Origin: an uncultured Desulfuromonadales bacterium
GTDB taxonomy: Bacteria > Desulfobacterota > Desulfuromonadia > Desulfuromonadales > Trichloromonadaceae
Assembly: GCA_945787465.1 (NCBI GenBank)
Contig: CALZIZ010000008.1
Span: forward strand, 1 to 46,576
Reading direction: 5' to 3'
DNA length: 46,576 bases
The position numbers and the translations under genes are program-made. Each line of letters opens with the position of its first letter. Position 1 is the stretch's first letter. The notes beneath the pieces were generated by a model, which saw only the letters and a list, made by a program, of their open reading frames with translations, ran no database searches and was not told where the DNA came from. Positions 4,729-28,750 of the stretch are shown in pieces.

Positions 4729-4796
4729 GGGGCTAAAGGTCCTTTCTTTGGGATGCAGGCCCAGGGGAAAGCCCAAGGATTCCATCTCCCTTTTTA

Positions 4797-8424: not shown

Positions 8425-8474
8425 AATTCCTGCCTCCCCAAGTTAATAACCCTGATTTCGGATTTTGTCCGGTT

Positions 8475-8539
8475 CTTAAACCCAGATCCGATGGAGCTGG
8501 GTTTAAGCCCGCACAGGAAGTGGCAGAACCCTGTGCGGG
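8475..8539 (-). other. Two adjacent perfect hairpins between narI and narK1
   Basis: Hairpin one: CTTAAACCCAG (8475-8485) with CTGGGTTTAAG (8497-8507), 11 perfect pairs. Hairpin two: CCCGCACAGG (8508-8517) with CCTGTGCGGG (8530-8539), 10 perfect pairs. They abut each other and have no T-tract, so they are unlikely to be simple terminators. They may stabilise the 3' end of the narGHJI message or adjust expression of the transporters relative to the reductase. Confidence 0.75.
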
Positions 8540-8559
8540 GAAAAGGATATCCGTCCGCT

Positions 8560-9246: not shown

Positions 9247-9260
9247 GAGAGAAACTCCTT

Positions 9261-9818
9261 TTACTGGTCAGCAACCAGCAGTTCAGACTCGGTTGCGGCT
9301 GTCACGGACAGAAAGCTCTGCAGGGCTCGGATCAGGTCCACGTAGGGATGTTGATCTGCCTCGATCCCCTGGGTCATTTTTGCCAATGCGGGTAACAGCC
9401 CATCCTCGATGATTTCCTGGCGACAGGCCTGTTCGGCAATCGATCCGAGAAAGCGCAGCACTTCACTCAGGTGATCCGGGAGCTCGCCCTCGGAAGTAAA
9501 ATTGTATTGTCGGTAAAGTTCCCGCAGTTTGATCAGAAACATGGTGCGCTGCTGACTCTCCCCGCAAAGTTGATAACCGACATAGGGATGACAGAGCGCC
9601 TGCAGGTCAAAAGTGCCGGTAAAGGCCTGCTCCACCCCGGAGCTGCCATTGGCCTCGAGAAAGCGGATGAAACTCTCCAGAGAGGCTGTCGCCTCGGCAC
9701 TGATCTGCTGCAAATGCGCAGCACAACTGGCAGCGCGTTCCCGGACACTGGCGTCGGGATAACTGAAGAGGGCCGCAAATTCTCGGCAGAGTTTTTGATG
9801 ATCTTGTAATTCAGTCAT
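9261..9818 (-). CDS. narJ: Nitrate reductase assembly chaperone NarJ
   Basis: 185 residues of the TorD/NarJ chaperone family, which inserts the molybdenum cofactor into NarG before the complex docks on NarI. Visible family features are CREFAALFSYPDA near the N-terminus and FDLQALCHPYVGYQL with RTMFLIKLRELYRQY in the middle. The protein is cytoplasmic and not part of the final enzyme. It sits in the conserved order between narH and narI. The ribosome site before the ATG (AGAGC) is weak, consistent with a chaperone needed in low amounts. Confidence 0.93.
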   Translation of the reverse strand: MTELQDHQKLCREFAALFSYPDASVRERAASCAAHLQQISAEATASLESFIRFLEANGSSGVEQAFTGTFDLQALCHPYVGYQLCGESQQRTMFLIKLRELYRQYNFTSEGELPDHLSEVLRFLGSIAEQACRQEIIEDGLLPALAKMTQGIEADQHPYVDLIRALQSFLSVTAATESELLVADQ

Positions 9819-9863
9819 TGTATGTGCTCTTTCAATTGCTGTATGGCTAAGTAAAAATACGAC

Positions 9864-11351
<1,488 letters not shown>

Positions 11352-11363
11352 AATCGTCTCTCC

Positions 11364-14300: not shown

Positions 14301-14987
14301 GTTGTACCAGTCGGCACTTTCCGCCACATCGGTCTGCTCGCCCCAGATTTCAGGCGAAGCATTGGGCAGATCGCAATACCAGTCGTAGAAGCTCAGGTTG
14401 GCCCCGCCCAGCAGCTGCATGAAGCGGGAGCCGCCGGCAAAGCTGAGCATCGACATCGCCGGAATCGGGGAGAACCCGACAAGGCGGTCGGGACCGTACT
14501 TTTTGATGGTATAGACGGTCGAGGCGGCGATGATCTCCTCGACTTCATCCCAGTTGGAGCGACGGAACCCGCCCTTGCCGCGGGCCTGCTGATAGCTCTT
14601 GCGGCTTTGCGGGTCTTCGACGATGGAGGCCCAGGCGGCCACTGGATCGGCATGCTTGGCCTTTGCCTCGCGCCAGAGGTCGGTCAGCACCCCGCGCAGA
14701 TATGGATACTTGATCCGCAGCGGACTGTACAGGTACCAGGAGAAGGAGATGCCGCGCTGACAGCCCCGCGGCTCATAGGGCGGAATGCCGTCTTCCAAAG
14801 GGGGATAATCAGTCGCCTGCAGTTCCCAGCCGACAATGCCGTCTTTGACATGGACGTTCCAGGAGCAGCCTCCAGTGCAGTTCACGCCATGGGTACTGCG
14901 CACCACCTTGTCGCACTGGTTCCGATTACGGTAAAACTCTTCCCATTTGCGAGACTTGGGATCGACGATATCTTTGATCCAACTCAT
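11364..14987 (-). CDS. narG: Respiratory nitrate reductase alpha subunit (molybdenum)
   Basis: 1207 residues, catalytic subunit with bis-MGD molybdenum; reduces nitrate to nitrite in the cytoplasm. The N-terminal FS0 cluster ligands are His33 (STHGVNC), Cys37, Cys41 and Cys76 (RGCQRG). The molybdenum-ligating Asp is Asp206 in [14 protein letters not shown], equivalent to E. coli Asp222. Conserved C-terminal segments include [18 protein letters not shown] and [23 protein letters not shown]. The N-terminus is ~16 residues shorter than in E. coli, lacking the vestigial twin-arginine-like stretch. AAGGGTGA precedes the ATG, 6 bases after the cytochrome gene stop. It is the second gene of the operon. 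Confidence 0.97.
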
Positions 14988-14993
14988 AACATT

Positions 14994-15518
14994 TCACCCT
15001 TTCTTTTTACGGGCCTTCTCCACCAGAGGCTGCCGAACATTCTTCAGCCGCCGCCATCCCAGCACGCCAATCAGACCTAGAAAAACTGCCGTAGCCAACC
15101 CCACCTGCCCCGCCAGTGCTGCGCCAATAGGCGGCGCGCCGTTTCCCTTCACTTCGGCCAGAAAAGCCGTCAGGTCGACACGCTCCTGCTCGGTCAGGGG
15201 CCGGGTGGCATAAATCGGTTCCATGCTCGGAAACGACAAATCCTCCAGGATCGAAATCACCCCGTCCTCGCCATAATCCTCGTACATCGGGGTCAGGTCC
15301 GGGCCGTAATTGGCCGCCCCGGCCCGCCCGAGCCCGGCACCGGCGATGCCGTGGCAGGCCAGGCACGGCGCTCCATCGTTGTCAAAGGAAGCAGTCCCGA
15401 CAAACAAAGCCTCCCCGCGACGCGGATCTCCACCGGATTCAGCGGCCGCGACCGGCGCCAGAAATATCAAGACTCCAGCTATGAACGCCCCAATCTGCAA
15501 CAATCTTTTTCTGATCAT
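14994..15518 (-). CDS. Membrane-anchored monohaem cytochrome c, first gene of nar operon
   Basis: 174 residues with a Sec signal peptide (hydrophobic to AAAES ~27), one CLACH haem site at 52-56, a likely distal Met99 in SFPSMEP, and a C-terminal membrane helix (about 137-156) with a basic tail. So the haem domain is periplasmic and tethered. The nar operons of some Thermus and Geobacter species also carry a cytochrome c gene ahead of or within narGHI; there it can take electrons to or from the nitrate reductase complex. Here it starts the transcript and lies 6 bases ahead of narG. Its likely role is a periplasmic electron branch of the nitrate reductase, which is inference. GAGGTG precedes the ATG. 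Confidence 0.88.
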   Translation of the reverse strand: MIRKRLLQIGAFIAGVLIFLAPVAAAESGGDPRRGEALFVGTASFDNDGAPCLACHGIAGAGLGRAGAANYGPDLTPMYEDYGEDGVISILEDLSFPSMEPIYATRPLTEQERVDLTAFLAEVKGNGAPPIGAALAGQVGLATAVFLGLIGVLGWRRLKNVRQPLVEKARKKKG

Positions 15519-15879
15519 TTTTCACCTCGTAAGGGACCCAAAAGTTATTGGTGAAGGGCTGATACGATTAGTTCTGAAAAACAACGATTTAAAAAGATTC
15601 TGAACTACCAACCAAAACCGACCTCCTTGGTGAGCTAGCCCCAATAAAGCCAGTAACATTTTAACATTTCAAGGGAATTTATCAGATTGCCTTGATGAAA
15701 AAATTAAAATATTTTTCTATTGTTGTATTTGACCTGGATCAAAAAATGTCATTTATTTAATTTTCCTTCATAAGGCACCAACAATGACTGCTTCATAAAA
15801 TTACACAGGTTCCCACTAAGACCATCTTGGGAGGTCTCGACAATGTTCGTGTTGCCAGGCATTGAATCGACCCAAGCCT
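15519..15879 (-). promoter_or_regulatory. Upstream region of the nar operon
   Basis: 361 AT-rich bases between the NrfD-CBS gene and the nar cytochrome gene. It contains the FNR-type box at 15729-15742 and, on the minus strand, TTTAAT at 15708-15703 as a possible -10 element (5 of 6 consensus), which places the start near 15697 and gives a leader of ~180 bases. A CTTCATAA octamer occurs twice (15767 and 15790 region). No terminator with a T-tract is visible for the NrfD-CBS gene; only a weak AGACC/GGTCT hairpin lies at ~15818-15838. Confidence 0.6.
15729..15742 (-). promoter_or_regulatory. FNR/CRP-family operator upstream of nar
   Basis: TTGACCTGGATCAA differs from the FNR consensus TTGAT-N4-ATCAA at one position. 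It lies ~210 bases before the first gene of the nar operon, in the AT-rich gap. Spacing to the candidate -10 (centre about 30 bases away) is close to the class II activation distance. Confidence 0.75.
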
Positions 15880-17586
15880 TTAATCCTCCTGGATATTTTC
15901 GAATGCCCTAACGATATCAATCCTCGATACGACTCCGACCGGCTGGCGTTTCTGATCGACGACAATTATTCTCTTTATTTTTCTTTCTAATAGAATCTGG
16001 GCGAGTTCCCTTAACGGGGTGTCTTTTTGAGTGGTGATGGCTGGGGAGGTCATGATTTCCGAGGCCGTTCCACCGGGAGCGCCCTTCACCAGAGCTTGCG
16101 GCAGGATGACATGCTTGAGCCGATCGACCAGATGGGGTTCCTGATGAATCTCATAGAAAATGATATCGGACTCCGAAACCACCCCCACCACACGGTTTTC
16201 GCCATCGACCACGGGCAGGCCGCTAATGCCGCGGGTACTCATTAATCGACGCACCTCGGAGACCTTTGCCTCCTGAGGGACGGAAATAACACTCCGGGTC
16301 ATGATGTCCCCGGCAACCGGGCCCTCCTCTTCTTTTTCATGAACCATCGGTGGTGCGCCGGGATGGCGCAGGCGGCCGGTATCCAGGGCAATGACGGTTC
16401 TTACGGCCAGGGTGTAGAGGAGCCCCCCGAAGGCCCAGATCCCAAGGCAGATCAGGACCTCCCGAAACGAGGGCATGTATTCATAAATTTCCCCGAGCGT
16501 ATCGGGAATGAAGCCAGGAATGATCAGACCCATTCCTTTCTCGATCCAGATCCCGACAAAAATCAGTGCACAGCCAATGTTAAGAGTGAAAAAGTTTTCC
16601 CTGGTCCGGGGCAGCAGGAAAAGGAAAAAACCGATGGTATTGAACACCATGGCGGTCCATATCCAGGGGACCAGATTGTTGTGGCCATGGAGCCCTTCAT
16701 AGAGATATTTCATCGGTTCCAGATGGACGGTATCCGAGTAATATTCCTTGAAGATCTCGGCGAACATGAGGAACAGATTGACAGCCATGGCATAGGCGAT
16801 GATCTCGGCCAGTTTGAAGATTGCCCGGTTGCGGACCTTAAAATCCATGACCTTCCTTAAAACCTGGAAGATGAGGATCATCAGGGCGGGTCCAGCACAG
16901 AACGCCGAAGCGAGAAATCTCGGTGCGAGAATCGAGGCGTTCCAGAATGGCCGGGCCGGCAGGCCGTTGTACAGATAGGCCGTGACGGTATGAATGCCGA
17001 TGGCCCAGGGGATGGAGAGCAGGATCAGGGGGATGACGAAGCGCTTGTTGGGCTCCCGGCCGAAATAGGTGCAGGCACCGATATAGGAAACGATGGTGAA
17101 ATTGAGAATCAGGTAGCCGTTGAGAACCAGTATGTCCCAGGCAAGGACCGATGAGGGGAAATTCAACCTCCCCACCATTGGAATCATGTGCCAGAGCCGG
17201 TCGGGCCTGCCGACATCCACTAAGACGAACAGCATCGCCATGATCACCGCGGTGACCGCCAGCAGCTCGCCGAAGGCGGTGATTTTCTTGATGGCCTTGA
17301 AATGATGGAGATAGGCTGGAATGACCAGGAGCACCGCCGCCGCGGCAACACCTACGAGAAAAGTGAAATTGGAGATGTAGAACCCCCATGAGACCTGATC
17401 TCTCATGTTGGTTATCCCCATCCCATGATAGAGCTGGGTCAGGTAGGCCCCTGCCCCCATGACAACGAAGATGGTCAGGAAGATCATCCAGGCATAAAAA
17501 GCCTTTCCGCCGACAAACATGACCTCAAACAGGCACTTGAAGAAGTCTCGAACTTCTTTCATATTTCCTTTAATCGTCAGTTCCAT
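15880..17586 (-). CDS. NrfD/PsrC-family membrane protein fused to two CBS domains
   Basis: 568 residues from the ATG at 17586, with AGGAG 10 bases upstream (the longer frame begins with TTG). Residues ~25-405 form the NrfD/PsrC/HmcC polytopic membrane family (about ten segments), a quinone-interacting subunit usually paired with a periplasmic iron-sulphur protein. Residues ~427-476 and ~511-566 are a CBS pair (DIMTRSVISVPQEAKVSEVRRL; EIMTSPAITTQKDTPLRELAQ), a cytoplasmic module that commonly binds adenine nucleotides. No iron-sulphur or cytochrome partner is encoded next to it. It follows ppc by 99 bases, so it may belong to the carbon block. An adenylate-gated quinone redox subunit is a reasonable inference, but the partner is unknown. 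Confidence 0.88.
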   Translation of the reverse strand: MELTIKGNMKEVRDFFKCLFEVMFVGGKAFYAWMIFLTIFVVMGAGAYLTQLYHGMGITNMRDQVSWGFYISNFTFLVGVAAAAVLLVIPAYLHHFKAIKKITAFGELLAVTAVIMAMLFVLVDVGRPDRLWHMIPMVGRLNFPSSVLAWDILVLNGYLILNFTIVSYIGACTYFGREPNKRFVIPLILLSIPWAIGIHTVTAYLYNGLPARPFWNASILAPRFLASAFCAGPALMILIFQVLRKVMDFKVRNRAIFKLAEIIAYAMAVNLFLMFAEIFKEYYSDTVHLEPMKYLYEGLHGHNNLVPWIWTAMVFNTIGFFLFLLPRTRENFFTLNIGCALIFVGIWIEKGMGLIIPGFIPDTLGEIYEYMPSFREVLICLGIWAFGGLLYTLAVRTVIALDTGRLRHPGAPPMVHEKEEEGPVAGDIMTRSVISVPQEAKVSEVRRLMSTRGISGLPVVDGENRVVGVVSESDIIFYEIHQEPHLVDRLKHVILPQALVKGAPGGTASEIMTSPAITTQKDTPLRELAQILLERKIKRIIVVDQKRQPVGVVSRIDIVRAFENIQED

Positions 17587-17650
17587 CTCTGCCCTACTCC
17601 TCTGAGCCAAAGAAAAAAAACCTTTAAGCCCAAATACAGGTCTCAGAGCC

Positions 17651-17659
17651 GGGGGGGGG
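17651..17659 (+). repeat. Poly-G tract (9 G) between ppc and the NrfD-CBS gene
   Basis: Nine consecutive G on the plus strand in the 99-base gap, followed on the minus strand by a run of T at ~17611-17618. Mononucleotide runs of this length are slippage-prone; here it is intergenic and could alter promoter or leader spacing. Confidence 0.6.
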
Positions 17660-17685
17660 CCTGAAAATCTAATCCGGGTTACCGC

Positions 17686-20481
17686 TCAACCGGTATTGCG
17701 CAACCCCGCGGCAATGCCGTTGATTGTTGCAGCCAGCGCATAGTTGAGCTCGTCGGTCTCTTTGCCGCCGCGTTTTCTTCGTAACAGCTCGATCTGGATC
17801 AGACTCATCGGGTCGACGTAGGGGTTGCGCAAGCGCAGGGAGTTGGCGAGATTGGGGTTGGTCTGCAGCAGACGCTCCTGAGCGGTCACCTGGAGAATCA
17901 TGCGCCGGGTTCGACGGTATTCGTCGGCAAACATGTCAAAGACCCGATTGCGCAGACCCGGGTCGGGGACCAGTCCGGCATAACAGCGAGCCAGGGGGAG
18001 ATCGACCTTGGCGAGGGCCATTTCGACGTTTCGCACCATGTCGAAAAAAATCGGGAAGCGCCGCATCATGGTGCGCAGCAGCTGTTTTTCTGCCTCGCCT
18101 CTGGCGGCGAAATTTTCGAAGGCGGTCCCGACGCCGAACCAGGCCGGGATCAGCAGCCGGCTCTGAATCCAACCGAAGCCCCAAGGGATAGCCCGTAAAT
18201 CGTCGAGGCCCTGGTTCTGGCTGCGCCGCGCGGGGCGCGAGCCAATTTTGGCCAGCTCGAACTCGAGGACCGGCGTGCCCTGTTCGAAATAGGCAAGGAT
18301 GTCGGGATTGTCGGCGATCTTCTGCCGGTAGCAGGCCAGGGCTTCGTCGCTCATCTGCTCCATGGCCTCCTCCCAGGCTGGATCTGGGGTCGATTCGACC
18401 AAGCCTGTGCGGGTCAGGGCTTCGAGGGAGGCTGCGACCATCAACTCGAGGTTGCGCCGAGCCAGGGCAGGATCGGAATACTTGAAATTGATCATCTCCC
18501 CCTGCTCGGTGAGCTTGAACGAGCCACTAAACGCACCAGCCGGTTGGGCGATGAGCGCCCGGTGGGTCGGGCCACCGCCACGACCGACGGTACCGCCGCG
18601 CCCGTGAAACAGGCGCAGTTTGACACCGCAGTCGTCGGCAACTCGGTACAAAGCACGGTGGGTCTTGTAGATCTCCCAGGTGCTTGTGAGCATGCCGCCG
18701 TCCTTGTTCGAATCTGAGTAGCCGAGCATCACCTCCTGCCAGCGTCCCCAGGAGTCGAGGTAAGGGGCGTAATCGGCGCACGACCAGAGGGTGCCGCAGA
18801 TATCGGGGGCGTTGCGCAAATCCTCAATCGACTCGAACAGCGGCACTGGCATCAGGCCGGGATCGCCAAGGTCGCGGCGGCCAGCCACGGAGATGCCGCA
18901 AAGTTCCATGAGCCAGACCAGGGAGAGGATGTCCCGGACGGAGCTGGCGCCGCTGATGACATAGCTGCGGATCGCTTCGGGGGGAAAATCGGCCTTGAGA
19001 CGCCCCAGAGCCCTCAGTGTTTCGAGCAGTTCGGCGGTCTGCGCCGAAGGGGCCTGCGGCAGAGGATCGGCCGGGTTGGCTGCGTGACCGGCCCCTGCGG
19101 CCAGTTCGCTCACCGCCCGGGCATGGACCTTTGCGTGTTGGCGGATATCGAGGGTATGCAGGTGAAAGCCGAAGGTGTCGACCTTGCGCAGCAGCGGCTC
19201 CACCAGCCGCGAGGCGAGACGCTCGCCCCCCTGGGCGCGCAGGCTGCGGTTAAGAATGTCCAGGTCGGCGCGCAGCGCCGCGGCATCAGGGTAAGCTTCC
19301 GAATCGGCGGGGTCGAGCAGGCAACGGCGCAGCCGGTGCCTGACGATGCTCAGATAGCGCCGGTAGAGCTCGCCTTCAGGCAGGGTTTCGGCGGCGCGGG
19401 CCGCCTCGGGAAGCTCCTGGTCATAGCGCTTAAGCGTATCGGCCAGAGGTGCGTCAACCCCGACCCGGAAGGTTGAAGGCGTGAGCAGCTTGCGCAGCTT
19501 TTCAACCTCGGCGAGGTAGTCGGAGAGGATCAGTTCCCGCGCCTTCTGCAGAGCCTCGCGGGTGCTTTCGACGCTGACAAAGGGGTTGCCGTCGCGATCG
19601 CCGCCAATCCAGGAGCCGAAGCGCACCACCGTCGGCAACTCTCCCGGATCGAGCTCGACCCGGTAGATTTCGGCAAAGTCCCGGGCAATCTCCTCGTAAA
19701 GCGAAGCGGTAGGGGGGAGCAGAGAGGCCGTGTAGTGGTCGAGGCCCATAACGATTTCATCGCTCACCCTCGGCTTTTGCCGGCGCACCTCATCGGACTG
19801 CCACAGGCCGGTGATTTCTCCGAGGATCGCCTCCTGGCTCTCGAGGGCCTGAGCGCCCGGCAGCGGAAGCCGATCAAGTTTTTCCAACTCGCCTGCAATC
19901 CGCCGGCGCTTGAACAGCACCACCCGACGCGCCACCTCGGTGGGATGGGCGGTAAAGACCGGGGAGACTTCGACCTGCCGCAGCCACAGCATGGCCCCGG
20001 AGGCATCGATGCCGGCCTGGCGCATGCGCAGCAGGGTGGCTCGCAGCGATCCGGGCTTATCGGGGCTACCCGTAACCAGGTGAGCGCGGCTGCGCCGTTT
20101 GCGGTGGATGTTTTCGGCGAGGTTTGCCAGCTCGAAAAAGGTGGCGAAGGTCTTGGTGATCTGATAGGCCTCGGTGGTGCTTAAGCGGGCGATGATCTCC
20201 ATCGCCTCCTGCAGCAGCGTGCACTCCTCCGCGTCTTCCAGCGCGGCATCACCCCAGGCGTTCTCCATCTCGCGGTGGCGGATCGCAAGGAGCCGCAGCT
20301 TTTCTTCGACATCGAAGACCTCCTCCCCCGCCTGCTCCTTGATCACGGTGCCAAGCAGCTTGCCAAGGGAGCGGACGTCCCTGCGCAGCGGCAAATCCTT
20401 GACTACCGGGTCGGAAGTGATCAGTTCTTGAAGTCTTTCGGCCTGGTTTTTCGCTGTCCAGAACAGCTCCCCTTCGGACAT
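17686..20481 (-). CDS. ppc: Phosphoenolpyruvate carboxylase
   Basis: 931 residues, a normal bacterial length. Carboxylates PEP with bicarbonate to oxaloacetate. The catalytic His is His179 in VFTAHPTEVARR; the second signature is GYSDSNKDGGMLTSTWEIY and the glycine loop is FHGRGGTVGRGGGP. The C-terminus ends in TINGIAAGLRNTG, the conserved allosteric-site tail. GAAAGGAG precedes the ATG. It follows the GAPDH-like gene by 72 bases, which include a hairpin, and lies in the same direction as the ACL-like and fumarate reductase genes. In that setting it would supply oxaloacetate for a reductive C4 branch. Confidence 0.97.
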   Translation of the reverse strand: MSEGELFWTAKNQAERLQELITSDPVVKDLPLRRDVRSLGKLLGTVIKEQAGEEVFDVEEKLRLLAIRHREMENAWGDAALEDAEECTLLQEAMEIIARLSTTEAYQITKTFATFFELANLAENIHRKRRSRAHLVTGSPDKPGSLRATLLRMRQAGIDASGAMLWLRQVEVSPVFTAHPTEVARRVVLFKRRRIAGELEKLDRLPLPGAQALESQEAILGEITGLWQSDEVRRQKPRVSDEIVMGLDHYTASLLPPTASLYEEIARDFAEIYRVELDPGELPTVVRFGSWIGGDRDGNPFVSVESTREALQKARELILSDYLAEVEKLRKLLTPSTFRVGVDAPLADTLKRYDQELPEAARAAETLPEGELYRRYLSIVRHRLRRCLLDPADSEAYPDAAALRADLDILNRSLRAQGGERLASRLVEPLLRKVDTFGFHLHTLDIRQHAKVHARAVSELAAGAGHAANPADPLPQAPSAQTAELLETLRALGRLKADFPPEAIRSYVISGASSVRDILSLVWLMELCGISVAGRRDLGDPGLMPVPLFESIEDLRNAPDICGTLWSCADYAPYLDSWGRWQEVMLGYSDSNKDGGMLTSTWEIYKTHRALYRVADDCGVKLRLFHGRGGTVGRGGGPTHRALIAQPAGAFSGSFKLTEQGEMINFKYSDPALARRNLELMVAASLEALTRTGLVESTPDPAWEEAMEQMSDEALACYRQKIADNPDILAYFEQGTPVLEFELAKIGSRPARRSQNQGLDDLRAIPWGFGWIQSRLLIPAWFGVGTAFENFAARGEAEKQLLRTMMRRFPIFFDMVRNVEMALAKVDLPLARCYAGLVPDPGLRNRVFDMFADEYRRTRRMILQVTAQERLLQTNPNLANSLRLRNPYVDPMSLIQIELLRRKRGGKETDELNYALAATINGIAAGLRNTG

Positions 20482-20499
20482 GGCCTGCTCCTTTCTTAT

Positions 20500-20520
20500 T
20501 TCCGGCCTTAACAGCCGGAA
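20500..20520 (-). other. Small hairpin between GAPDH-like gene and ppc
   Basis: TTCCGGC (20500-20506) pairs with GCCGGAA (20514-20520) around a 7-base loop. No T-tract follows on the minus strand, so an mRNA-processing or attenuating element is more likely than a terminator. Confidence 0.5.
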
Positions 20521-20553
20521 TCCCCAGTGACTCGCTCCCTGGCCTGACGGATT

Positions 20554-21726
20554 TCAGTTGCCTGCCCCCGATACGGGATCAAAGACCCTGGGCGGTCCTT
20601 CGAGAAGCAGGTGGCGGATGGCCTCGATTACACTGCGGCAATAGCCCCGGGTGTTATGGACGTAGGCCTGAAGAATCAGTTCGCTGACCGGCGGGGCCGG
20701 TTCCGATCCGAGGTTGAAGGGATCGTCTGCAAAACGCAGAAAAACCGGTTGGGGAAGGACCACGGCAGCCGCATCACACTGCTCGAACCCCCGGCTGCCG
20801 TAAGGTCGGTCCGCAAGGCGCAGCACCTTGGGCAGCCGCGTCGCCGTGCGGCCCAGACTCGCCGCGATACGCGCTCCATCGAGCCGGCTGCCGTCTTCGC
20901 AGAGATAGCTGAAGAAAAACCGGCAGAGCTGATATCCGGGCGGCATGGTCAGGGTCCGCAGGGAGATGGTGTTGATGTTATTGCTCGAAGGGAACAGCCG
21001 GTTCATCGACAGCTCCACCTGGGAGAAACCGGGGCGTAGATTGTTGCGCGGGTCCTGCTCACGGGCCCGGATCGACCCCGTCCCGAGGCGGCCCGTGGGC
21101 GTATCGGGGTGGACGATGTCCACCTCCATGGCCCGGAAATCAAGAGTGCTCAGCTCTGCCTCTTCTGCCAGTTCGAGAAGGCCCCTCAGCTGCGCCTGCC
21201 AGCCGTTGGTCTGGCAGGACCCGAGCGCAAAAATCCGGTCGCCCCCCGCGGGCCGCGGCTTGACCGGCAAAAACCGCCCCGGCGCTCCGATCAGCCCGGG
21301 GTAAAACCCCGGAAGTGAGGTCGCCTCCGCGACGCCGACCACGTAGTCGGAAACACTCAGAAATCGCTCCAACAGTTCCCGGTTGTTGATATGGGTTTTG
21401 GCGGTGGCAACGATACAGACACCGAAGGGCCCGGGCAGCATCTCTAGGGGATAGCCCTGCATGTCGCCGAAAAAGACCGGCACCCGGTTTCCGCAGATCA
21501 CCAGGGAGCTTCCTTCAACGGCAACCTGGTCGAGCAGCCGGGGCTGGGCGAGCACGATCCGTGCACAGAGCCCGTCCATCGGCGTCAGTTCCGGATGGCT
21601 GGGGTCGGTGGCCACCGGATTGGTCAGCACCGCCCCGATCTTGAAACCGTCCTGTTGCGGCTGAAGCATCCCGAGCAGAATCGAACCGATTTCGGCGCCG
21701 CATCCGATAAGAAGAACTTGTTTCAT
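20554..21726 (-). CDS. GAPDH-like NAD(P)-dependent dehydrogenase, substrate unknown
   Basis: About 390 residues from the ATG at 21726; the frame runs 42 residues further upstream, but that part is repeat DNA. A Rossmann motif opens the protein (VLLIGCGAEIGSILLGML). GSCQTNGWQAQLRG at the domain boundary resembles the SCTTNC catalytic segment of glyceraldehyde-3-phosphate dehydrogenase, so an active-site Cys appears to be kept, though the second Cys is Gly. MEVDIVHPDTPTGRLGTGSI and NNINTISLRTLTMPPGY belong to the C-terminal catalytic fold. It is too divergent from glycolytic GAPDH to assume that substrate; acylating aldehyde or phosphorylating activity on another acid is possible. It lies between the ACL-like pair and ppc. 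Confidence 0.7.
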   Translation of the reverse strand: MKQVLLIGCGAEIGSILLGMLQPQQDGFKIGAVLTNPVATDPSHPELTPMDGLCARIVLAQPRLLDQVAVEGSSLVICGNRVPVFFGDMQGYPLEMLPGPFGVCIVATAKTHINNRELLERFLSVSDYVVGVAEATSLPGFYPGLIGAPGRFLPVKPRPAGGDRIFALGSCQTNGWQAQLRGLLELAEEAELSTLDFRAMEVDIVHPDTPTGRLGTGSIRAREQDPRNNLRPGFSQVELSMNRLFPSSNNINTISLRTLTMPPGYQLCRFFFSYLCEDGSRLDGARIAASLGRTATRLPKVLRLADRPYGSRGFEQCDAAAVVLPQPVFLRFADDPFNLGSEPAPPVSELILQAYVHNTRGYCRSVIEAIRHLLLEGPPRVFDPVSGAGN

Positions 21727-21754
21727 AACCCGCCTTTCATTTTCTTTAACTATC

Positions 21755-21981
21755 ACCATACAAGGCACCAAGACACCAAGAACAGCGATAAACTTTGTTG
21801 TCTGCCGTTCATGCTGAGCCTGTCGAAGCATCGGTTTACCAGACGCTTCCAAGGCCTTCGACAGGCTCAGGCCGAACGGACTGACGTTGGTAGGATGGGG
21901 CCTGCCCCATCACTGAAAGCACCATACAAGGCACCAAGAAAATCTCCGGTCAAGGGCCTTCGACAGGCTCAGGCCGAACGG
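21755..21981. repeat. Dispersed palindromic (REP-like) repeats between aclA-like and GAPDH-like genes
   Basis: Three copies of a ~25-base element: one read as CTGAGCCTGTCGAAG (centre ~21820) and two in the opposite sense as CCTTCGACAGGCTCAGGCC (21855-21879 and 21957-21981). The first two form an inverted pair. A second repeat, ACCATACAAGGCACCAAGA, occurs at 21755-21773 and 21921-21939, so an ~160-base unit looks partly duplicated. The CTTCGACAGGCTCA core is a known type of dispersed repeat in many bacteria. This 285-base gap holds no gene. Confidence 0.8.
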
Positions 21982-22011
21982 GGGTTGGCCTTGTTTCAGA
22001 ATCCCCCCGCA

Positions 22012-24720
22012 TCAGGCCAGGTAGCGCAGCTCCGAGTTGGGGGTTCGGCAGTCCATGTCGGTGCCGCGACTGCGGTGGTCGGCGATCTCGGCGGCGATGC
22101 CCGGCATCCGGCCGTAGAGGAACAGGCGGAAAACCGCATCCTGCATCGCCTCGGGCGTCACCGTACCGGCCTGCAACTGCGGCCAGAAAAGCTCCAGGGA
22201 CAAGGTGGCGATCACTGCATCGACATTGACGCAAAAGACGTTTCGGGTGGCCCCGATGCTGTACAACTGTTCCACCAAGTGATGGTAGAACTCGAGAAAC
22301 GGATTGCTGATGCCCTGCTCCCGAAGCAGGGCACGCAGTCGTTCTTCACGGGGATCGATATTGACCGCCTGCCCGCGGAACACCGGGTGGTTGATGCAGG
22401 GGATCGGCGCGGGCGGATTGGCATCGCGGGCGCTGCGCTTGGCCGCCAGAAAATTGCGGGCGCTCTGCTCAGCCAGTTGCTGCAACAGTTGCTCCCGTTC
22501 CGCCTCTGGCATTTGGTAAGGATCATGGTCGGCAAACACTTCGAGCAGATAAGCGACGGCCTTGAAACCGTTGCCTCCGTGGGCCAGGCCGGTGTTGGTC
22601 ATGAAGCCGGCGTAGGCGGTTGCGATATCGTTACCGGCGCTGACACTCTCCTTGGCTCCCATGACGCTGAGAGGCCCCGGACCATTACTGACCGTGAGGT
22701 TAAGCAGGGCGTTGAGGCCAAACTGCTCTTCGCCACTCTTCGATGAGCGTCCGAACAGGCTGCGGAAGAGGGTTTCGACAAATCCCTGGTCAAGACCTGC
22801 TTCGGCCGTTTCCGACCATAGGGGGGTGACGGCGCCCGCACTTGCTACCAGACCCATCAAGGCCAGGTGAGTGCCGAGTTCCACCGCGGTCTGCCGCGGT
22901 ATGCGGCGACTCTTCAGGGCCGGCCAGGCCCAGCCGAGCAGTATCGCCGCGGTGAGCAGGGTCATCGGGTTGGTCTGTTCATCCTCGCTCTTCTCGCGAG
23001 CGCTGTATTGCTCGGCAAACCGGGTCAGCAACGTCTCTATCTCCAACGTCCTGATCAGGCCGGCGCAATGCTCGGCCGCGGCCCTATCCTGATCGGAGAC
23101 CGGACTTTTCGGCAGATCGCGGATCGCATCCAGAGCGTTCTGAAGAAGTTCCTCGTTCAGCTCTGCCTCTGGCCCACTGTCGTGAAAAAGGGTATCGATC
23201 AGGGTGTCGCTGATGGTGACTGTATCCCGGAACCAGTTGTTATTCCCGGCCAGCAGAACTTCTGCGGCCAGGTAGGCATTCGGGGTGCAGGTATTGGCCC
23301 GGCCTAGGGGGGAGACCGGGCTTTGCCGGCTGTCGGCCCGCCGGGTCAACCAGTTGAGCAATGCGTTGGCCAGGGGGGTGGCCTTCTCGTCCAGTTCATA
23401 GCGCAGCAGGGCAAACAGACAAGTTCCGGCAAACGGTTTTTCGATCAGCTCGAGGATCGGTGTGCCGTAGATTTCGGTCTGCTGGGTCGCCGCATCCACC
23501 CGGGTGGCGCTGGAGGCGTTGCGCATCGATTCCCGTACCAGGCAGGCGCCGACCTGCCGGTTGGCCTCTGCCAGCTGTCGGTCGTAGGGGGCAAGAGGCG
23601 TCACCGGCTGCAGGCGCAGGTGTTCGGGGAGAGCACCCCCTTGGTGATTGACCAGCCAGGGCTTGAGGGAGAGATCCCCTTCGGTTGGAAAGTCGGGCTC
23701 CTCGCCGAGCTGGGTCATGACCGCGCTGACTGCCGCCGGCAGATCCTGGATGGAGGTCACGCGCACGCCCCGCGCACCAACCTGAGGACTTGGGGCGGAA
23801 AACGCCGGAACCTCAAAATACCTGTCGAACCAGGCCTCCTTGGCGAAGGCATCGTCACTACCGCCGGCCATGGCCCCGGCATGACCGCAGGGACGTGCCA
23901 GGCGGCTTTTCCAGCGACCGGTCACGCAGGCGACCAGCGGCTTGCTGAACGGCAGCCGCCCCTCGGTGATCCAGTCAAGGGCCTGCTTCTCGTAATAACC
24001 TCCCGGTTCGATGTACACCACAACCGCCTTGGTGCGGGGATCGTTTTCGGCACAATAGAGAAATTCGGCCAGAGCGAAATGGATGTAGTGATCCTTGCCG
24101 CTGCTGAAGATGCTCGAAGTACCGAAACCGCAGGTTTTCAGGTATTCGGCCAGGGTAGTGCAAAAATTCCCGGAATTGCTGTAAATGGCGATGCTGCCGC
24201 GTTTCAGGCAGTCGGCCGGGTTGTCGCCACCGAGGGCGCCGCCAATGCGGACCTGGTCCCAGGAGTTACCGATGCCGAGGGAGTTGGCTCCGAGAACGTC
24301 GATTTTGCGATTTTGGGCCACGTATCGGATCAGCCGGGAATCGCGGACCGAAACCTTTTCGGTGACGATGAAGACCCGCTCCAGGCCCTGGTTGTGTACG
24401 CAGAGTTCTGATACGGCGTGGCTGACCGCAGCGGGGGGAAGATAGATGACACCGGTATCGAATTCGTGCCCGTTCTTCAGCACCTCGGTGACACTACCGT
24501 AAACTGGGATCGGCCCGGCCGACGTCTCCAGCTCTTCGCCGGTGCTGCCGAACTGGACCCCGGCGACTATGTTGCTGCCGCTGAAGGCGTGCGACATGGG
24601 GGTCACCTGGGCGCTCTCGGTGCCGAGAATGTTCATTACACAGACCCGTGAGCGACGGTTGGCCAGCTCGTGCAGGCTCTGGGCGCCGACAAAATATGGA
24701 AAAGGCGATGAGGTAGGCAT
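22012..24720 (-). CDS. ATP-citrate-lyase-like large subunit, enlarged and divergent
   Basis: 902 residues; classical AclA is about 600. Residues ~1-330 match the succinyl-CoA-synthetase alpha/CoA-ligase part, including GANSLGIGNSWDQVRIGGALGG and the phospho-His segment CGHAGAMAGGSDDAF. Residues ~350-600 form an extra helical stretch I cannot assign. Residues ~600-902 are the citrate-synthase-like domain (NGPGPLSVMGAKESVSAGND, TNTGLAHGGNG, FCVNVDAVIATL). By eye, the catalytic AHN His of ACL is replaced by Met (LSVMG), the preceding DHGP His is Asn, and GHR is NHP, while the Asp of NVD is retained. AAGGAG precedes the ATG. It follows the small subunit by 26 bases. Citrate cleavage is plausible from its partner but unproven. 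Confidence 0.82.
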   Translation of the reverse strand: MPTSSPFPYFVGAQSLHELANRRSRVCVMNILGTESAQVTPMSHAFSGSNIVAGVQFGSTGEELETSAGPIPVYGSVTEVLKNGHEFDTGVIYLPPAAVSHAVSELCVHNQGLERVFIVTEKVSVRDSRLIRYVAQNRKIDVLGANSLGIGNSWDQVRIGGALGGDNPADCLKRGSIAIYSNSGNFCTTLAEYLKTCGFGTSSIFSSGKDHYIHFALAEFLYCAENDPRTKAVVVYIEPGGYYEKQALDWITEGRLPFSKPLVACVTGRWKSRLARPCGHAGAMAGGSDDAFAKEAWFDRYFEVPAFSAPSPQVGARGVRVTSIQDLPAAVSAVMTQLGEEPDFPTEGDLSLKPWLVNHQGGALPEHLRLQPVTPLAPYDRQLAEANRQVGACLVRESMRNASSATRVDAATQQTEIYGTPILELIEKPFAGTCLFALLRYELDEKATPLANALLNWLTRRADSRQSPVSPLGRANTCTPNAYLAAEVLLAGNNNWFRDTVTISDTLIDTLFHDSGPEAELNEELLQNALDAIRDLPKSPVSDQDRAAAEHCAGLIRTLEIETLLTRFAEQYSAREKSEDEQTNPMTLLTAAILLGWAWPALKSRRIPRQTAVELGTHLALMGLVASAGAVTPLWSETAEAGLDQGFVETLFRSLFGRSSKSGEEQFGLNALLNLTVSNGPGPLSVMGAKESVSAGNDIATAYAGFMTNTGLAHGGNGFKAVAYLLEVFADHDPYQMPEAEREQLLQQLAEQSARNFLAAKRSARDANPPAPIPCINHPVFRGQAVNIDPREERLRALLREQGISNPFLEFYHHLVEQLYSIGATRNVFCVNVDAVIATLSLELFWPQLQAGTVTPEAMQDAVFRLFLYGRMPGIAAEIADHRSRGTDMDCRTPNSELRYLA

Positions 24721-24746
24721 GGCAATCTCCTTGGGTAATAACCGGC

Positions 24747-26009
24747 TCAGGCAGTGCGTGCGGTTGCTTTAGCTTCGTTCGAGGCTTTCTCCAACCAACG
24801 GTCGAGTTCCAGAGCATAGTGGATGACGCTGACCATGCTGCTGTCAAAGCCGAAAAAGGAGTGAGGTATCTGCAGCCTATCGAGCGTATCGCGGGCGTAA
24901 GTCAATCCCTCGACCAGACGGGGGCCGCCCCGCCCGACCACCACATGGATCCGCGGGTTGAGGTCAATATGGTCGCGCAGAGCGTCAAAGATCCCCTTGA
25001 AGGTGTTGAAAATATTTGTATTGTTGGCACGCCCACCGATAACCAGCAGGACTTTTGCCTGATGAAGCCAGTGCCGCATGGTGATATCGGCAATCGCCTT
25101 CATTTTCTCAAAAGGGGGGTTGCCGCCGAAATCCGAGGAGAGAATGGCACGGTCGCCGAGGATTTCCGTGGTCACGCTGTTCGCACCGCCACCGAACATG
25201 AACGGCAGGATGCTCCCCTGAGGATTGATTTCGACCACATCGCTCTGTCCCTGGTGGGTGCGCAGAACGTTGATTTCCGCCTCGAAGCGGCTCAGCTCGG
25301 TGGAAAAAATTTCCTCGGGAAAACCGAGCCGGCGCCAGGCCGGGTTATCCAGGTCGAAGGCGGCCTTAATATCGCAGGCAACAGGTAGATAGCGCCCGTC
25401 TTGTCTGGTCATGCGGATCGGATTCAATTCCAGCACGGTCATGCCGTAGTTGTCGTAGAGCTGCCAGAGTTTTGGCAGGTGCTGCACCAGCGGGCTGATG
25501 TAGTGCGCCGGGCAGCCGAGTTCCCGCAGCGCATCGTGGACGTGGAACGCCTTGAGTCCGGTGGCCGGATTGAAGGTGATGATCTTTTTCCGCTCCGGGG
25601 GGAGCTCCTCGACGTCCACGCCGCCTTCGGCGGTCAGGGTCATGACTGGGCTGCGGAAGATGGTTGAGGCGCTGATATTGACATAAACCTCGACGTCCGA
25701 AGGGATAAACCCCTCAAAGGTCACGCCGTTGGCCTGCACCTGACGGTTCCCCTGCTCATGGATAGCGAAATAGAGCTCTTTTTTCGCAACCATCGCCTCG
25801 TAGGGGTTGTCGACAATCCGCACCAGTCCCGCTTTTCCCTTCTTGCCGATGCCACCGAGAAAGACCGGTTTGACGACGCACTTACCGCCGTGCCGCTGAA
25901 TCAGGCCACTGACCTCATCGAGGGAGGCGCTGGCTCGCAAGGTTTCGGCTACGGGAAAGTCGACCAGTCTGAGCAATTGGTTTCCGAATTTCATGCCGGT
26001 TATCTGCAT
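24747..26009 (-). CDS. ATP-citrate-lyase-like small subunit (ATP-grasp, citrate-binding)
   Basis: 420 residues, close to bacterial AclB (~400). The N-terminal ATP-grasp half includes CVVKPVFLGGIGKKGKAGLV. The C-terminal citrate-binding half has PFMFGGGANSVTTEILGD, VIGGRANNTNIFNTFKGI and VVVGRGGPRLVEGL; residues equivalent to human ACLY Asn346, Thr348 and Arg379 seem retained (Asn and Thr of NNT, Arg of RGGP; recalled from the known structure, aligned by eye). So the citrate/ATP activation step looks intact, in contrast to the changed lyase domain of its partner. GGGAGG precedes the ATG. It is transcribed ahead of the large subunit. Confidence 0.85.
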   Translation of the reverse strand: MQITGMKFGNQLLRLVDFPVAETLRASASLDEVSGLIQRHGGKCVVKPVFLGGIGKKGKAGLVRIVDNPYEAMVAKKELYFAIHEQGNRQVQANGVTFEGFIPSDVEVYVNISASTIFRSPVMTLTAEGGVDVEELPPERKKIITFNPATGLKAFHVHDALRELGCPAHYISPLVQHLPKLWQLYDNYGMTVLELNPIRMTRQDGRYLPVACDIKAAFDLDNPAWRRLGFPEEIFSTELSRFEAEINVLRTHQGQSDVVEINPQGSILPFMFGGGANSVTTEILGDRAILSSDFGGNPPFEKMKAIADITMRHWLHQAKVLLVIGGRANNTNIFNTFKGIFDALRDHIDLNPRIHVVVGRGGPRLVEGLTYARDTLDRLQIPHSFFGFDSSMVSVIHYALELDRWLEKASNEAKATARTA

Positions 26010-26273
26010 CTGGATCCTCCCTTATGAAAATCCTGTGAATAAAAGCGAATTTGCCGTGTGAAAACAACATTACGCCTTGTTGTCACGCCCAGGAGGTTGT
26101 CGGACCTGACGGACAATAACGAGATATTGAATGTTCGAGACCAGATTTTCGAGACTTTGAGAGCGAATAGCAGGGCTATTTGCCGAAAAGTGTCGAGGAT
26201 ATGGGCCGATCAGCCGATTTCGCAGTAGGTTCATGTTAAGCCCGGCAGCCTCATGGAATGAAACCTGATAAAG
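26010..26273. other. Intergenic gap between frdA-like and aclB-like genes
   Basis: 264 bases without a supported gene. A loose TGTC...GACA symmetry occurs near 26098-26115. No T-tract terminator is visible, so transcription from the fumarate-reductase genes may continue into the ACL-like genes; a separate promoter cannot be excluded. Confidence 0.4.
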
Positions 26274-27869
26274 TCAGAGCTTATCGACGATAAACTCAGG
26301 GAATAACGTAGGTGATTTGGAAACATTGGAAATTCGTAGGGCCTTCAGACTGTCATAGTAACGATGAACATGATTCAGGGTGGCATTGCCCGGCTCATTG
26401 TGTTTCCTCTTGGCAGCAGCGATCCCGGCTCTTCTGCCGAAAACGAAGATATCCAGCAACGAATTGCCCATGGCGCGGTTTCTTCCGTGAATGCCGCCGG
26501 CGGCTTCGCCGGCAACAAAGAGATTCTGCACCGAAGATTCGCCTTTTTCATCGATGAGCACCCCGCCGTTTTGGTAATGCAGGGTGGGATAGATGAGCAG
26601 CGGGCTTTTGGTAACATCGATCTTGACCCGCATGAATTGTTTATAGAGGGAGGGAAACCGCTTTTTGAGAAAGCCTTTTTCCCGGGTCTCTTCCAGGACG
26701 GGAATATCAAGCCAGACCCCCACCCTACCTGATTGGGTTTTGACACCGTTGCCGATCTGACATTCCTGAATAATAGCGGAGGCCACCACATCACGGGTTT
26801 CCAGCTCGTTAACGAACCGCTCCCCGTGGACGTTGACCAGGTGGGCGCCAAGGCTGCGGATCGCTTCGGTAACCAGCACCCCGACCATATGATCGGGAAA
26901 CATCACCCCGGTCGGATGATATTGAAAGGAGTCGAGGCCCTCCATCCGGGCACCGGCTCGGTAGGCCAATACCACCGCGTCTCCGGTAGCCCCGAAATTG
27001 TTAGAAGTGGGAAACCCCTGGTTGTGAAGCCGACCGGCGCCTCCGGTAGCGAGAATCACCGCCTTGGCCTTGACCGCGAAAAAGCGTTTGCGGCCGAGGT
27101 CGAAAAGAATGGCCCCGTTGCACTCACCCGCCTCGTTCGTGGTCAATTCCACTGCTGGGGTGAATTCGGAGATTTCGATCCGGTCGCTCTTGCGCAGCTC
27201 GTCTTTGAGAACCTTCATGATGTTCAGGCCGGTATGGTCGCCGATAGAAAGGATTCGGGCCGAGGACAGCCCGCCGGCCTTCTTGGTCGCCAGATTGCCG
27301 CTCGCGTCCCGGTCGAAATTGACGCCGATATCGAGCAGCCATTTGACGATCCCGGGTCCGTCTTCGACCATGGTCTTGACCAGACTCCGTTTGCCGGCAA
27401 ACTGGCCGGCCAACATGGTGTCGGCGAAATGTTTGATGAGAGAGTCATTCTCCGCCACCGAAGCCTGCATCCCCCCCAGGGCCATTATGGTGTTAGAGTT
27501 GCCCAACCTCAGTTTGGTGGCCAGCAACACCCGGGCGCCGACGCTTTCGGCGAACAACGCCGCGGTAACCCCGGCCCCACCGCCGCCCAGGACCAGGACA
27601 TCGGTGGTGTATTCAGGAACCAGGTCGATCTTGGAATAATCCAGATCGCTGAACGCCTCTAGAAGGTCGGCAACCTCATGGGTTACCCGGTCGCCCTTGT
27701 TAGCTCCGATTCTGAGATTACGAAATGCCGAATCCTTGTAATCGGGGTGGTACCCTTTCAGCAGTTCGCTCTTTTCCTGATCGGAAAATTTTCCCAACGT
27801 CTGTTCTTTTCTTTTTTTCCGGGTGGCCGCCGCTTTCTCCAGAGGCTCGATCAGATATTCAGCATACAT
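26274..27869 (-). CDS. Fumarate reductase/succinate dehydrogenase-type flavoprotein
   Basis: 531 residues. The FAD Rossmann motif is VLVLGGGGAGVTAALFAE. Active-site segments of the SdhA/FrdA family are present: QYHPTGV, TEAIRSLGAHLVNVHGERFVNE (catalytic Arg region), TLHYQNGGV, and AGEAAGGIHGRNRAMGNSLLD. The segment that normally reads RSHT, where His binds FAD covalently, reads LGNSNTIMALGG; the His is Asn, as in non-covalent relatives. An extra ~85 basic and charged residues precede the FAD motif. The gene follows the iron-sulphur subunit by 12 bases and no membrane anchor gene is present, so the enzyme is probably soluble. Direction (fumarate reduction versus succinate oxidation) is inferred from the setting. 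GGAGG precedes the ATG. Confidence 0.85.
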   Translation of the reverse strand: MYAEYLIEPLEKAAATRKKRKEQTLGKFSDQEKSELLKGYHPDYKDSAFRNLRIGANKGDRVTHEVADLLEAFSDLDYSKIDLVPEYTTDVLVLGGGGAGVTAALFAESVGARVLLATKLRLGNSNTIMALGGMQASVAENDSLIKHFADTMLAGQFAGKRSLVKTMVEDGPGIVKWLLDIGVNFDRDASGNLATKKAGGLSSARILSIGDHTGLNIMKVLKDELRKSDRIEISEFTPAVELTTNEAGECNGAILFDLGRKRFFAVKAKAVILATGGAGRLHNQGFPTSNNFGATGDAVVLAYRAGARMEGLDSFQYHPTGVMFPDHMVGVLVTEAIRSLGAHLVNVHGERFVNELETRDVVASAIIQECQIGNGVKTQSGRVGVWLDIPVLEETREKGFLKKRFPSLYKQFMRVKIDVTKSPLLIYPTLHYQNGGVLIDEKGESSVQNLFVAGEAAGGIHGRNRAMGNSLLDIFVFGRRAGIAAAKRKHNEPGNATLNHVHRYYDSLKALRISNVSKSPTLFPEFIVDKL

Positions 27870-27881
27870 ACGATACCTCCA

Positions 27882-28556
27882 TTAACCTTCAACGGTCTTG
27901 CGACAGAAATCTCTCAGGGCCTCATCGCTCATGGTCAGGATTTTCCCAAACTCTTCATCATTCTTTAGAGATTCCACCTCTTTCAGCCTTTTTTGGAGAT
28001 TGGCAGGAATGGGGCGCTGTCTGGCGCAGGAGCGCTGGATATAGAGCCCGACAAACTGGGGTGCAATGCTTTTTGGACACCGGGAGGCACACAGCCCGCA
28101 CATGTGGCAGTCCATAACCCTCTCGGCGGCCGGGAAAAAATCTTCTTCCTTGGCCTTTTTCATGACCCCAGCCACATCAATCCATTCCGGACAGATATTG
28201 CAGGCTTTGCAATCGTTGCAGGAGTAGAGTTCCGGATACATTTCCGATAGCACCCCCAGAGGATCTTCCAGGCTCTTCATGTCGTATCGTGCAACCCGGG
28301 AGGGAAAATAGGGGAGCATGATCACATTCATTCCCTCCTCGACAACCACCTGGCAACCCAACCCGAACTTGACTCTCTGTGCCCCGGCTTCAAGAAAAGC
28401 CACGGTACAGGCGCCGCACAACCCAGAAAGACATCCGATTCCACGGTTGAGTTCATGACCGGTGTCCCAGAGGGCCTCGATAACAGTCAGCCCCTCGGGG
28501 ACCCTGATCTTTCTTCCTTCGAGTTCCATGGTGATCATCGTTTTCTGCTCTTTCAT
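27882..28556 (-). CDS. Fumarate reductase/succinate dehydrogenase-type iron-sulphur subunit
   Basis: 224 residues from the ATG at 28556 (a GTG two codons upstream is possible; GAGGG lies just before). The N-terminal plant-type [2Fe-2S] fold has Cys44, 49, 52 and 70 (frame numbering from the GTG) in GIGCLSGLCGACTV and FGLGC. Two further groups follow: CNDCKACNICP (115-124) and CHMCGLCASRCP (152-162), giving two cubane clusters. This is the SdhB/FrdB layout. The C-terminus has the PQFVGLYIQRSCARQ stretch but no CCG heterodisulphide-type domain, so it is not a TfrB. It is the promoter-proximal gene, ~180 bases from the operator at 28737. Confidence 0.86.
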   Translation of the reverse strand: MKEQKTMITMELEGRKIRVPEGLTVIEALWDTGHELNRGIGCLSGLCGACTVAFLEAGAQRVKFGLGCQVVVEEGMNVIMLPYFPSRVARYDMKSLEDPLGVLSEMYPELYSCNDCKACNICPEWIDVAGVMKKAKEEDFFPAAERVMDCHMCGLCASRCPKSIAPQFVGLYIQRSCARQRPIPANLQKRLKEVESLKNDEEFGKILTMSDEALRDFCRKTVEG

Positions 28557-28736
28557 AGCCACCCTCTTCGTTAGGCAGTCACAGCTCGCAGGGGTTTTGT
28601 CGGTAGATACGCGGTTAAGAGAATGCTTTTCCCGACCTATCCATTCAGGTTCATCCCGGCCACTTGATTACCGGTCTTACATTATAGGTTGCAAATTGAT
28701 TTTTTCTACTTTTAGAACATTACTCATGAATAGTAT

Positions 28737-28750
28737 TTGACTCAGGTCAA
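28737..28750 (-). promoter_or_regulatory. Perfectly symmetrical FNR/DNR-type operator upstream of frd-acl block
   Basis: TTGACTCAGGTCAA is an exact TTGAC-N4-GTCAA palindrome. On the minus strand TAAAAG (28714-28709) lies with its centre 32 bases downstream, the distance expected for a -10 element with activator at -41.5. The match to the FNR/DNR/HcpR half-site type is strong; which family member binds is unknown. Confidence 0.8.

Follow-up and report, generated by a model that had tools for sequence, protein, structure and literature searches.

Fumarate reductase-like and ATP-citrate lyase-like genes adjoin the nitrate reductase locus of an uncultured Desulfuromonadales bacterium

A block of carbon genes upstream of the nar locus

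The window studied here is a stretch of 46,576 nucleotides (contig CALZIZ010000008.1, assembly GCA_945787465.1) from an uncultured Desulfuromonadales bacterium, in which seven consecutive open reading frames (ORFs) occupy positions 15880-28562 of the - strand and are read in the direction 28750 to 15880. Directly downstream, on the same strand, lies a nitrate reductase (nar) locus (cytochrome c–narGHJI–narK, 4297-15518), and the seven-gene block is best read as the upstream half of one nitrate-respiration locus. With moderate confidence, we interpret it as an entry block for the reductive tricarboxylic acid (rTCA) cycle that is co-regulated with nitrate respiration, i.e., a FrdB–FrdA–NrfD(CBS) module interrupted by a type II ATP-citrate lyase (ACL) and a gene resembling glyceraldehyde-3-phosphate dehydrogenase (GAPDH), then followed by cytochrome c–narGHJI–narK. 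Gene order points plainly to the co-location of the entry block with nitrate respiration, while co-regulation is probable; the enzyme families are known ones in a new arrangement. In the few soil and sediment bacteria that carry such genes, CO2 fixation may be switched on during nitrate respiration. The features of the block are, in reading order:

27882-28562, - strand: FrdB-like electron-transfer subunit, 226 aa, with a 2Fe-2S motif (C44, C49, C52, C70) and two 4Fe-4S motifs, without CCG domain
26274-27869, - strand: FrdA-like flavoprotein, 531 aa, TfrA/NadB/FrdA family, with dicarboxylate site H318, R359, H431, R465, and N126
24747-26009, - strand: AclB-like subunit, 420 aa, with ATP-grasp and citrate-binding (Citrate_bind) domains; N329, T331 and R360 kept
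22012-24720, - strand: AclA-like subunit, 902 aa, with a CoA-binding/succinyl-CoA synthetase (SCS)-alpha part (phospho-His H280) and a citrate-synthase/citryl-CoA-lyase-like C-terminus (H714, H778, D834, R791, R871)
21754-21981, no strand: repetitive extragenic palindromic (REP)-like repeats, copies of CCTTCGACAGGCTCAGGCCGAACGG in both orientations, which lengthen the AclA–orfX gap
20554-21726, - strand: orfX, 390 aa, ATG start, GAPDH-like by profile alignment
17686-20481, - strand: phosphoenolpyruvate (PEP) carboxylase, 931 aa, by domain match; not kept at the loci of relatives
15880-17610, - strand: membrane subunit of the NrfD/DsrP type, 576 aa, carrying two CBS domains at its C-terminus, by domain matches; true start probably 24-54 nt inside the annotated ORF

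A first-pass annotation, made from the letters alone, had described six or seven genes in one direction; seven ORFs with the domains it named are indeed present, while the continuation into the nar genes had been missed, the reader stopping one gene short of them. In that continuation, narG, narH, narJ and narI are all present and in order:

14994-15518, - strand: c-type cytochrome, 174 aa, heading the nar genes
11364-14987, - strand: NarG
9864-11351, - strand: NarH
9261-9818, - strand: NarJ
8560-9246, - strand: NarI
5259-8424, - strand: two NarK-type transporters of the major facilitator superfamily (6853-8424 and 5259-6917)
4297-4824, - strand: small PAS-domain protein

Conservation was examined in sampled genomes of Desulfuromonadia (class, n = 244; order, n = 136; G and L numbers denote genomes and loci). 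The run FrdB–FrdA–AclB–AclA–orfX–NrfDCBS–cytc–NarG–NarH is complete in G097 (L009), a Geoalkalibacter genome that GTDB places in one genus with the named metagenome-assembled genome (MAG) of L007; PEP carboxylase is missing there, and no gap between frdB and NrfD reaches 70 bp. A second Geoalkalibacter MAG (G130, L007/L010), the contig of which starts inside AclB, agrees in gene order from that point on. In G073 (L008/L014), a PAS gene and a cytochrome come after the ACL pair at the contig end, and FrdBA adjoins a narK pair on a separate contig, while in G001 FrdBA lies directly behind a narGHJI–narK–narK–PAS run, with the ACL pair ~13 kb from that FrdBA and adjoining a different Frd. Altogether, the ACL pair was found in 4/136 genomes of the order, and orfX in 3/244 of the class, i.e., the window genome and both Geoalkalibacter, but in neither of the ACL-bearing G073 and G001. 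The gene order first described is kept in relatives, with one exception: PEP carboxylase, originally counted as a member, is missing from the homologous loci of all relatives compared, and appears as a local addition to a block that the same comparison reveals as composite. As for ACL and orfX, which separate FrdA from NrfD in the window and Geoalkalibacter, they would have been either inserted at this place or lost elsewhere.

Regulatory sites and intergenic gaps

Three candidate control elements were located:

28737-28750, no strand: FNR/CRP-type palindrome TTGACTCAGGTCAA, ~175 bp upstream of the frdB-like gene
28681-28708, - strand: sigma-70-like promoter match (TAGAAA-16-TATAAT, 10/12), between the FNR-like site and frdB
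15729-15742, no strand: second FNR/CRP-type palindrome TTGACCTGGATCAA, upstream of cytochrome c–nar

The single FNR-type box of the first-pass annotation is thus joined by a second strict copy, before cytochrome c–nar. The strict motif TTGAYN4RTCAA occurs twice in the window (0.23 expected), twice in L009, ahead of frdB and cytochrome c–nar (0.03 expected), and twice ahead of AclB in L008 (0.04 expected). Counterparts of both window sites recur at matching positions, in Geoalkalibacter at L009:2299-2312 for the first, and at L007:6784 and L009:11677 for the second. Because these palindromes precede frdB and cytochrome c–nar in the window and in L009, and AclB in L008, they support an FNR/CRP-family control common to the carbon block and nar. 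The promoter match is weak, since sigma-70-like matches are no more numerous than in shuffles, and an Rfam scan of positions 8000-31000 returned no matches.

The two longer gaps, 264 and 285 bp in the window as correctly reported at first, had been taken to leave room for two or three transcripts; in Geoalkalibacter they measure just 28 and 39 bp. Since the 285-bp AclA–orfX gap is occupied by REP-like repeats, copies of CCTTCGACAGGCTCAGGCCGAACGG being confined to it within the window, the gaps are no argument for separate transcripts in relatives.

The small PAS-domain protein (window 4297-4824; L138:7583-8008; L014:18374-18808; L142:12267-12692) accompanies nar, FrdBA or ACL genes, its homologues adjoining the frdB-like gene in G001 and G180 and AclA in G073; it is possibly a sensor of the locus. 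Downstream of the nar locus, a protein with AAA_26 and DRTGG domains (2864-3958) resembles the N-terminal part of phosphotransacetylases.

The FrdB–FrdA–NrfD(CBS) module

The assignment of the flavoprotein to fumarate/succinate in the first-pass annotation is borne out by its active site: the protein has a FAD_binding_2 domain and the His/Arg/His/Arg set of the dicarboxylate-reducing FrdA superfamily, the set being present in all homologues checked. In place of the FAD-linking histidine, the window protein and its homologues have an asparagine (N126), which disfavours succinate oxidation, as established for FrdA/SdhA, and is the residue expected in non-covalent-FAD fumarate reductases and aspartate oxidases; fumarate reduction would be the favoured direction. 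Window-type FrdA (at least 73% identity) occurs in 10/244 genomes of the class, often at a nar locus, and nine of these ten have NarG, vs. 82/244 overall (Fisher p = 2.9e-4, uncorrected for relatedness). Because of this association, and because FrdBA ends the nar run in G001, FrdBA appears to be primarily a pair associated with nitrate respiration.

FrdB, FrdA and NrfD are three adjoining genes, without ACL or orfX, in G110, G067, G128 and G089. Ahead of them stand a Tat-type DsrO/NrfC-like ferredoxin in G128, apparently also in G089, and a multihaem cytochrome in G128; in both genomes NrfD lacks the CBS part. Since FrdBA–NrfD–CBS is present without ACL in other genomes, we regard it as a redox module of its own, independent of the carbon genes, and the initial idea of a single module, PEP carboxylase included, had to be abandoned. 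NrfD adjoins FrdBA or shares its gene run in six genomes (seven with G130, the contig of which is cut upstream), which suggests a place for the NrfD–CBS protein, earlier said to have none in the rTCA cycle, while the GAPDH-like enzyme is still unexplained. FrdBA–NrfD–CBS is also the least explained part of the block. Tentatively, it may represent a new membrane-bound dicarboxylate:quinone oxidoreductase, i.e., a complex II analogue in which DsrP/NrfD with adenylate-sensing CBS domains would replace cytochrome b, and which, in Desulfuromonadia respiring nitrate, would drive the reduction of fumarate, or gate it, to serve CO2 fixation. The genes would thereby point to a fumarate-reductase-like complex on an NrfD membrane subunit with CBS sensors, of which no published description was among the matches of our literature searches on NrfD-linked fumarate reductase.

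Units without ACL lie at L119:9553-13562, L120:7717-11752, L121:2525-6078 and L122:7203-10750; in L121, the upstream multihaem cytochrome and Tat-type DsrO/NrfC-like ferredoxin make up a DsrJOP-like set, with FrdBA replacing DsrMK. Moreover, C179 of FrdB is kept in the six loci with NrfD, whereas the five checked without NrfD have L, S, L, L and Y at this position, a lead to a docking site, though confounded by kinship.

The independence of the module also bears on whether a cycle exists at all. If only a regulon were shared, FrdBA–NrfD–CBS would be a redox valve or a second dicarboxylate:quinone oxidoreductase for nitrate respirers, and ACL a supply of cytosolic acetyl-CoA. The four genomes with FrdBA–NrfD but no ACL fit such a picture, as do those with FrdBA and nar but no ACL (G210, G180), and the different contigs of the Frd and ACL sets in G073. 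Yet, both sets are tightly interleaved in one Geoalkalibacter gene run, and the ACL pair of G001 also adjoins a fumarate reductase, albeit a different one, so that we hold a mere regulon to be unlikely, if far from negligible.

The ATP-citrate lyase pair

The pair described at first as ACL-like proves to have intact catalytic residues and the architecture of type II ACL, i.e., one subunit with ATP-grasp and citrate-binding domains, and another with SCS-alpha fused to a citrate-synthase/citryl-CoA-lyase-like domain. H280, N329, T331, R360, H714, H778 and D834 are at least 95% conserved across 27–28 sequences, and PDB alignments agree. Over its first 290 residues, the large subunit has Hydrogenobacter citryl-CoA synthetase as best PDB match, while its C-terminal profile matches Hydrogenobacter citryl-CoA lyase 6hxp (4.3e-6) and, with hhalign, gave no match to the citrate synthases of the same genomes. 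An AlphaFold model of this subunit (mean pLDDT 71) could be aligned to the ACL of Chlorobium and of human over ~650 columns; the TM-scores were low, probably owing to a different placement of the domains. The peptides of the type II primers acl2F1/acl2R1, VAKEEWF and NGFEAIA, correspond in the alignment to FAKEAWF (292-298) and NGFKAVA (717-723), with 5/7 identical residues each. Given these peptides, the conserved catalytic residues, and the profile and structure matches to citryl-CoA enzymes and ACL, the pair can be placed in the type II ACL family, citrate cleavage itself being predicted.

ACL as a replacement for a lost citrate synthase was rejected, because citrate synthase is present in 12/12 genomes searched. 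ACL is reversible in principle, and Desulfobacter runs it backwards as an ATP-conserving citrate synthase; the window enzyme might do likewise during acetate oxidation with nitrate, FrdBA–NrfD then acting as a succinate dehydrogenase. This would suit a class that oxidises acetate via the TCA cycle (PMC2996986), but a normal citrate synthase is found in all genomes tested and was detected in nitrate-grown Geobacter metallireducens (PMC7324539), and N126 disfavours succinate oxidation, which makes a reversed ACL quite improbable.

A tree of 27 rows sets the Desulfuromonadia ACL in a clade of their own (support 100/100). Outside it are plasmid-borne relatives and other members of the phylum, the latter often next to a gene resembling isocitrate dehydrogenase (IDH); a gene reading as monomeric IDH stands beside ACL in 12/20 phylum loci. 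The plasmid-borne ones in Gemmobacter, Microvirga and Paraburkholderia (~40% identical), near Tct tripartite transporters, TcuAB or DctA, hint that the locus might serve the use of citrate or a related tricarboxylate; as they belong to a different clade, and neither the window nor the conserved loci showed a recognisable tricarboxylate transporter, we give this very little credence.

Type II-like pairs occur on plasmids of aerobic soil/plant bacteria (L035, L036, L037, L038, L039), several near Tct, DctA or TcuAB, which suggests ATP-dependent citrate or tricarballylate use there. Other pairs (L056:8056-11366, L057:7506-10867; ~37% identical) have a 690-aa large subunit without the middle 200 residues, apparently a natural deletion variant of the family.

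The GAPDH-like orfX

Membership of orfX in the GAPDH family by Pfam match was rejected: no Pfam (Gp_dh_N and Gp_dh_C included), NCBIfam or PDB match was obtained. Against GAPDHs of the same genomes, the orfX profile gives a global end-to-end P of 8.4e-5 with hhalign, vs. 0.65–0.85 for controls, and a local P of only 0.0074; candidate catalytic residues C170, H205, R256 and N357 (counted without the start Met) are collinear with the GAPDH Cys-x-Thr-Asn, His, Arg and C-terminal Asn. The structure model (pLDDT 44) is too low in confidence to serve for a fold search. A GAPDH-like nature is likely, not certain, and orfX is a real, rare ORF, for which no described counterpart was found in the searches made, nor any copy in phages and viral contigs.

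The first-pass annotation had made the GAPDH-like enzyme and PEP carboxylase core steps of one undescribed carbon-assimilation pathway. The retention of orfX with the block in the window and both Geoalkalibacter genomes, and its GAPDH Cys/His/Arg/Asn landmarks, speak for this, but PEP carboxylase is missing at the locus in all relatives, for which the pathway including it was rejected; orfX itself is missing from two ACL-bearing genomes, and a 34% identical relative on a Pantoea alhagi plasmid is flanked by YrdC-like and PEP-binding proteins, with neither ACL nor Frd alongside. We consider such a pathway the least probable of all readings. The Pantoea three-gene set (pPALTYR11Z, L072:11204-14337; YrdC-like, orfX homologue, PEP-utilizers_C) is possibly an undescribed biosynthetic module.

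A proposed reductive TCA cycle during nitrate respiration

According to the reading that we favour, anoxia or nitrate would cause ACL and a second, non-covalent-FAD fumarate reductase to be made together with Nar. ACL would convert citrate, ATP and CoA into acetyl-CoA and oxaloacetate, and FrdBA would reduce fumarate to succinate with electrons from menaquinol via NrfD, or from a soluble donor; along with the genome's own 2-oxoacid:ferredoxin oxidoreductases, they would close a reductive TCA cycle, permitting CO2 assimilation when formate, H2 or Fe(II) as donors give no usable carbon. Through the CBS pair, adenylate charge would tune the membrane step, while orfX may be an acyl/aldehyde or acyl-phosphate dehydrogenase acting on a product of the block.

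We favour this reading because gene order is conserved in Geoalkalibacter, the FNR-like palindromes are matched, the ACL and FrdA residues are kept and FrdA is associated with NarG, but also because G. metallireducens combines a comparable neighbourhood with growth on formate by CO2 fixation, and type II ACL is tied to the rTCA cycle elsewhere. Homologues of 2-oxoacid oxidoreductases are present in all ACL genomes tested, which supports it further. Several points weigh on the other side: every ACL genome tested keeps an ordinary citrate synthase, so that ACL is not obligatory; the locus has no recognised 2-oxoglutarate:ferredoxin oxidoreductase, aconitase or IDH; most nitrate reducers of the class lack the carbon genes; and other type II ACL relatives adjoin tricarboxylate/dicarboxylate transport genes, making another use possible. 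Finally, the direction and electron partner of FrdBA are read from motifs, and the co-expression of the block with nar from sequence. If true, the choice of nitrate for respiration and that of reductive TCA for carbon would be tied together at a single locus, in bacteria known chiefly for acetate oxidation, and the Desulfuromonadia able to grow autotrophically could be predicted from it.

Comparison with known systems

Complex II is defined by a covalent FAD His, a 2Fe-2S/4Fe-4S/3Fe-4S subunit and a cytochrome b or CCG anchor; N126, two 4Fe-4S-type motifs and NrfD as membrane gene led us to reject a classical complex II or quinol:fumarate reductase. TfrA is the best NCBIfam match of the FrdA-like protein, but its score (350.7 bits) is below the cut-off (718), and the 226-aa FrdB has no equivalent of the C-terminal CCG half of TfrB, but two 4Fe-4S motifs and an NrfD partner gene, so that identity with TfrAB was also rejected. 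The NrfD part passes the NCBIfam cut-off for DsrP of DsrMKJOP (NF045798; 425.9 vs. 350), but carries two added CBS domains, with FrdBA as partners instead of DsrMK and no dissimilatory sulfite reductase alongside.

Both ACL subunits and the C-terminal domain have the Hydrogenobacter citryl-CoA synthetase/lyase (6hxq, 6hxp) as best PDB matches, except that in the window the small-subunit homologue and the lyase domain form a single protein. With type II ACL in the sense of Huegler & Sievert (Riftia/Lamellibrachia symbionts, Thioflavicoccus; PMC3522073, PMC6315080), the pair shares the sizes seen in the relatives found (~900-aa large, ~420-aa small subunit) and the catalytic residues, whereas it is only ~40% (large) and ~53% (small) identical to IDH-linked phylum relatives. 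In tubeworm symbionts, type II ACL goes with idh, acn, kor and tfrAB and is tied to the rTCA cycle, as also in Thioflavicoccus (PMC6315080); the window clade is linked to nar instead, and none of acn, idh, mdh and korABCD was recognised beside aclAB among the annotated window genes.

The closest described neighbourhood is that of G. metallireducens, for which Aklujkar et al. (2009; PMC2700814) reported a cluster with ppc, the uncharacterised SCS/citrate-synthase-related Gmet_0305-0306 and a second frd, and nar at Gmet_0328-0337. Gmet_0304-0310 and nar bring the same gene kinds into one chromosomal region, with a cytochrome c before nar and two narK, but ~20 genes separate the carbon genes from nar, the frd is a Chlorobi-type complex, and neither a GAPDH-like gene nor NrfD–CBS is mentioned in that description (PMC2700814). 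Feist et al. (2014; PMC3998878), in their model, credited G. metallireducens with a reductive TCA cycle as well as with ATP-citrate lyase. They also confirmed its growth on formate, the CO2 fixation being attributed to that cycle; we infer that the ACL of this model corresponds to Gmet_0305-0306.

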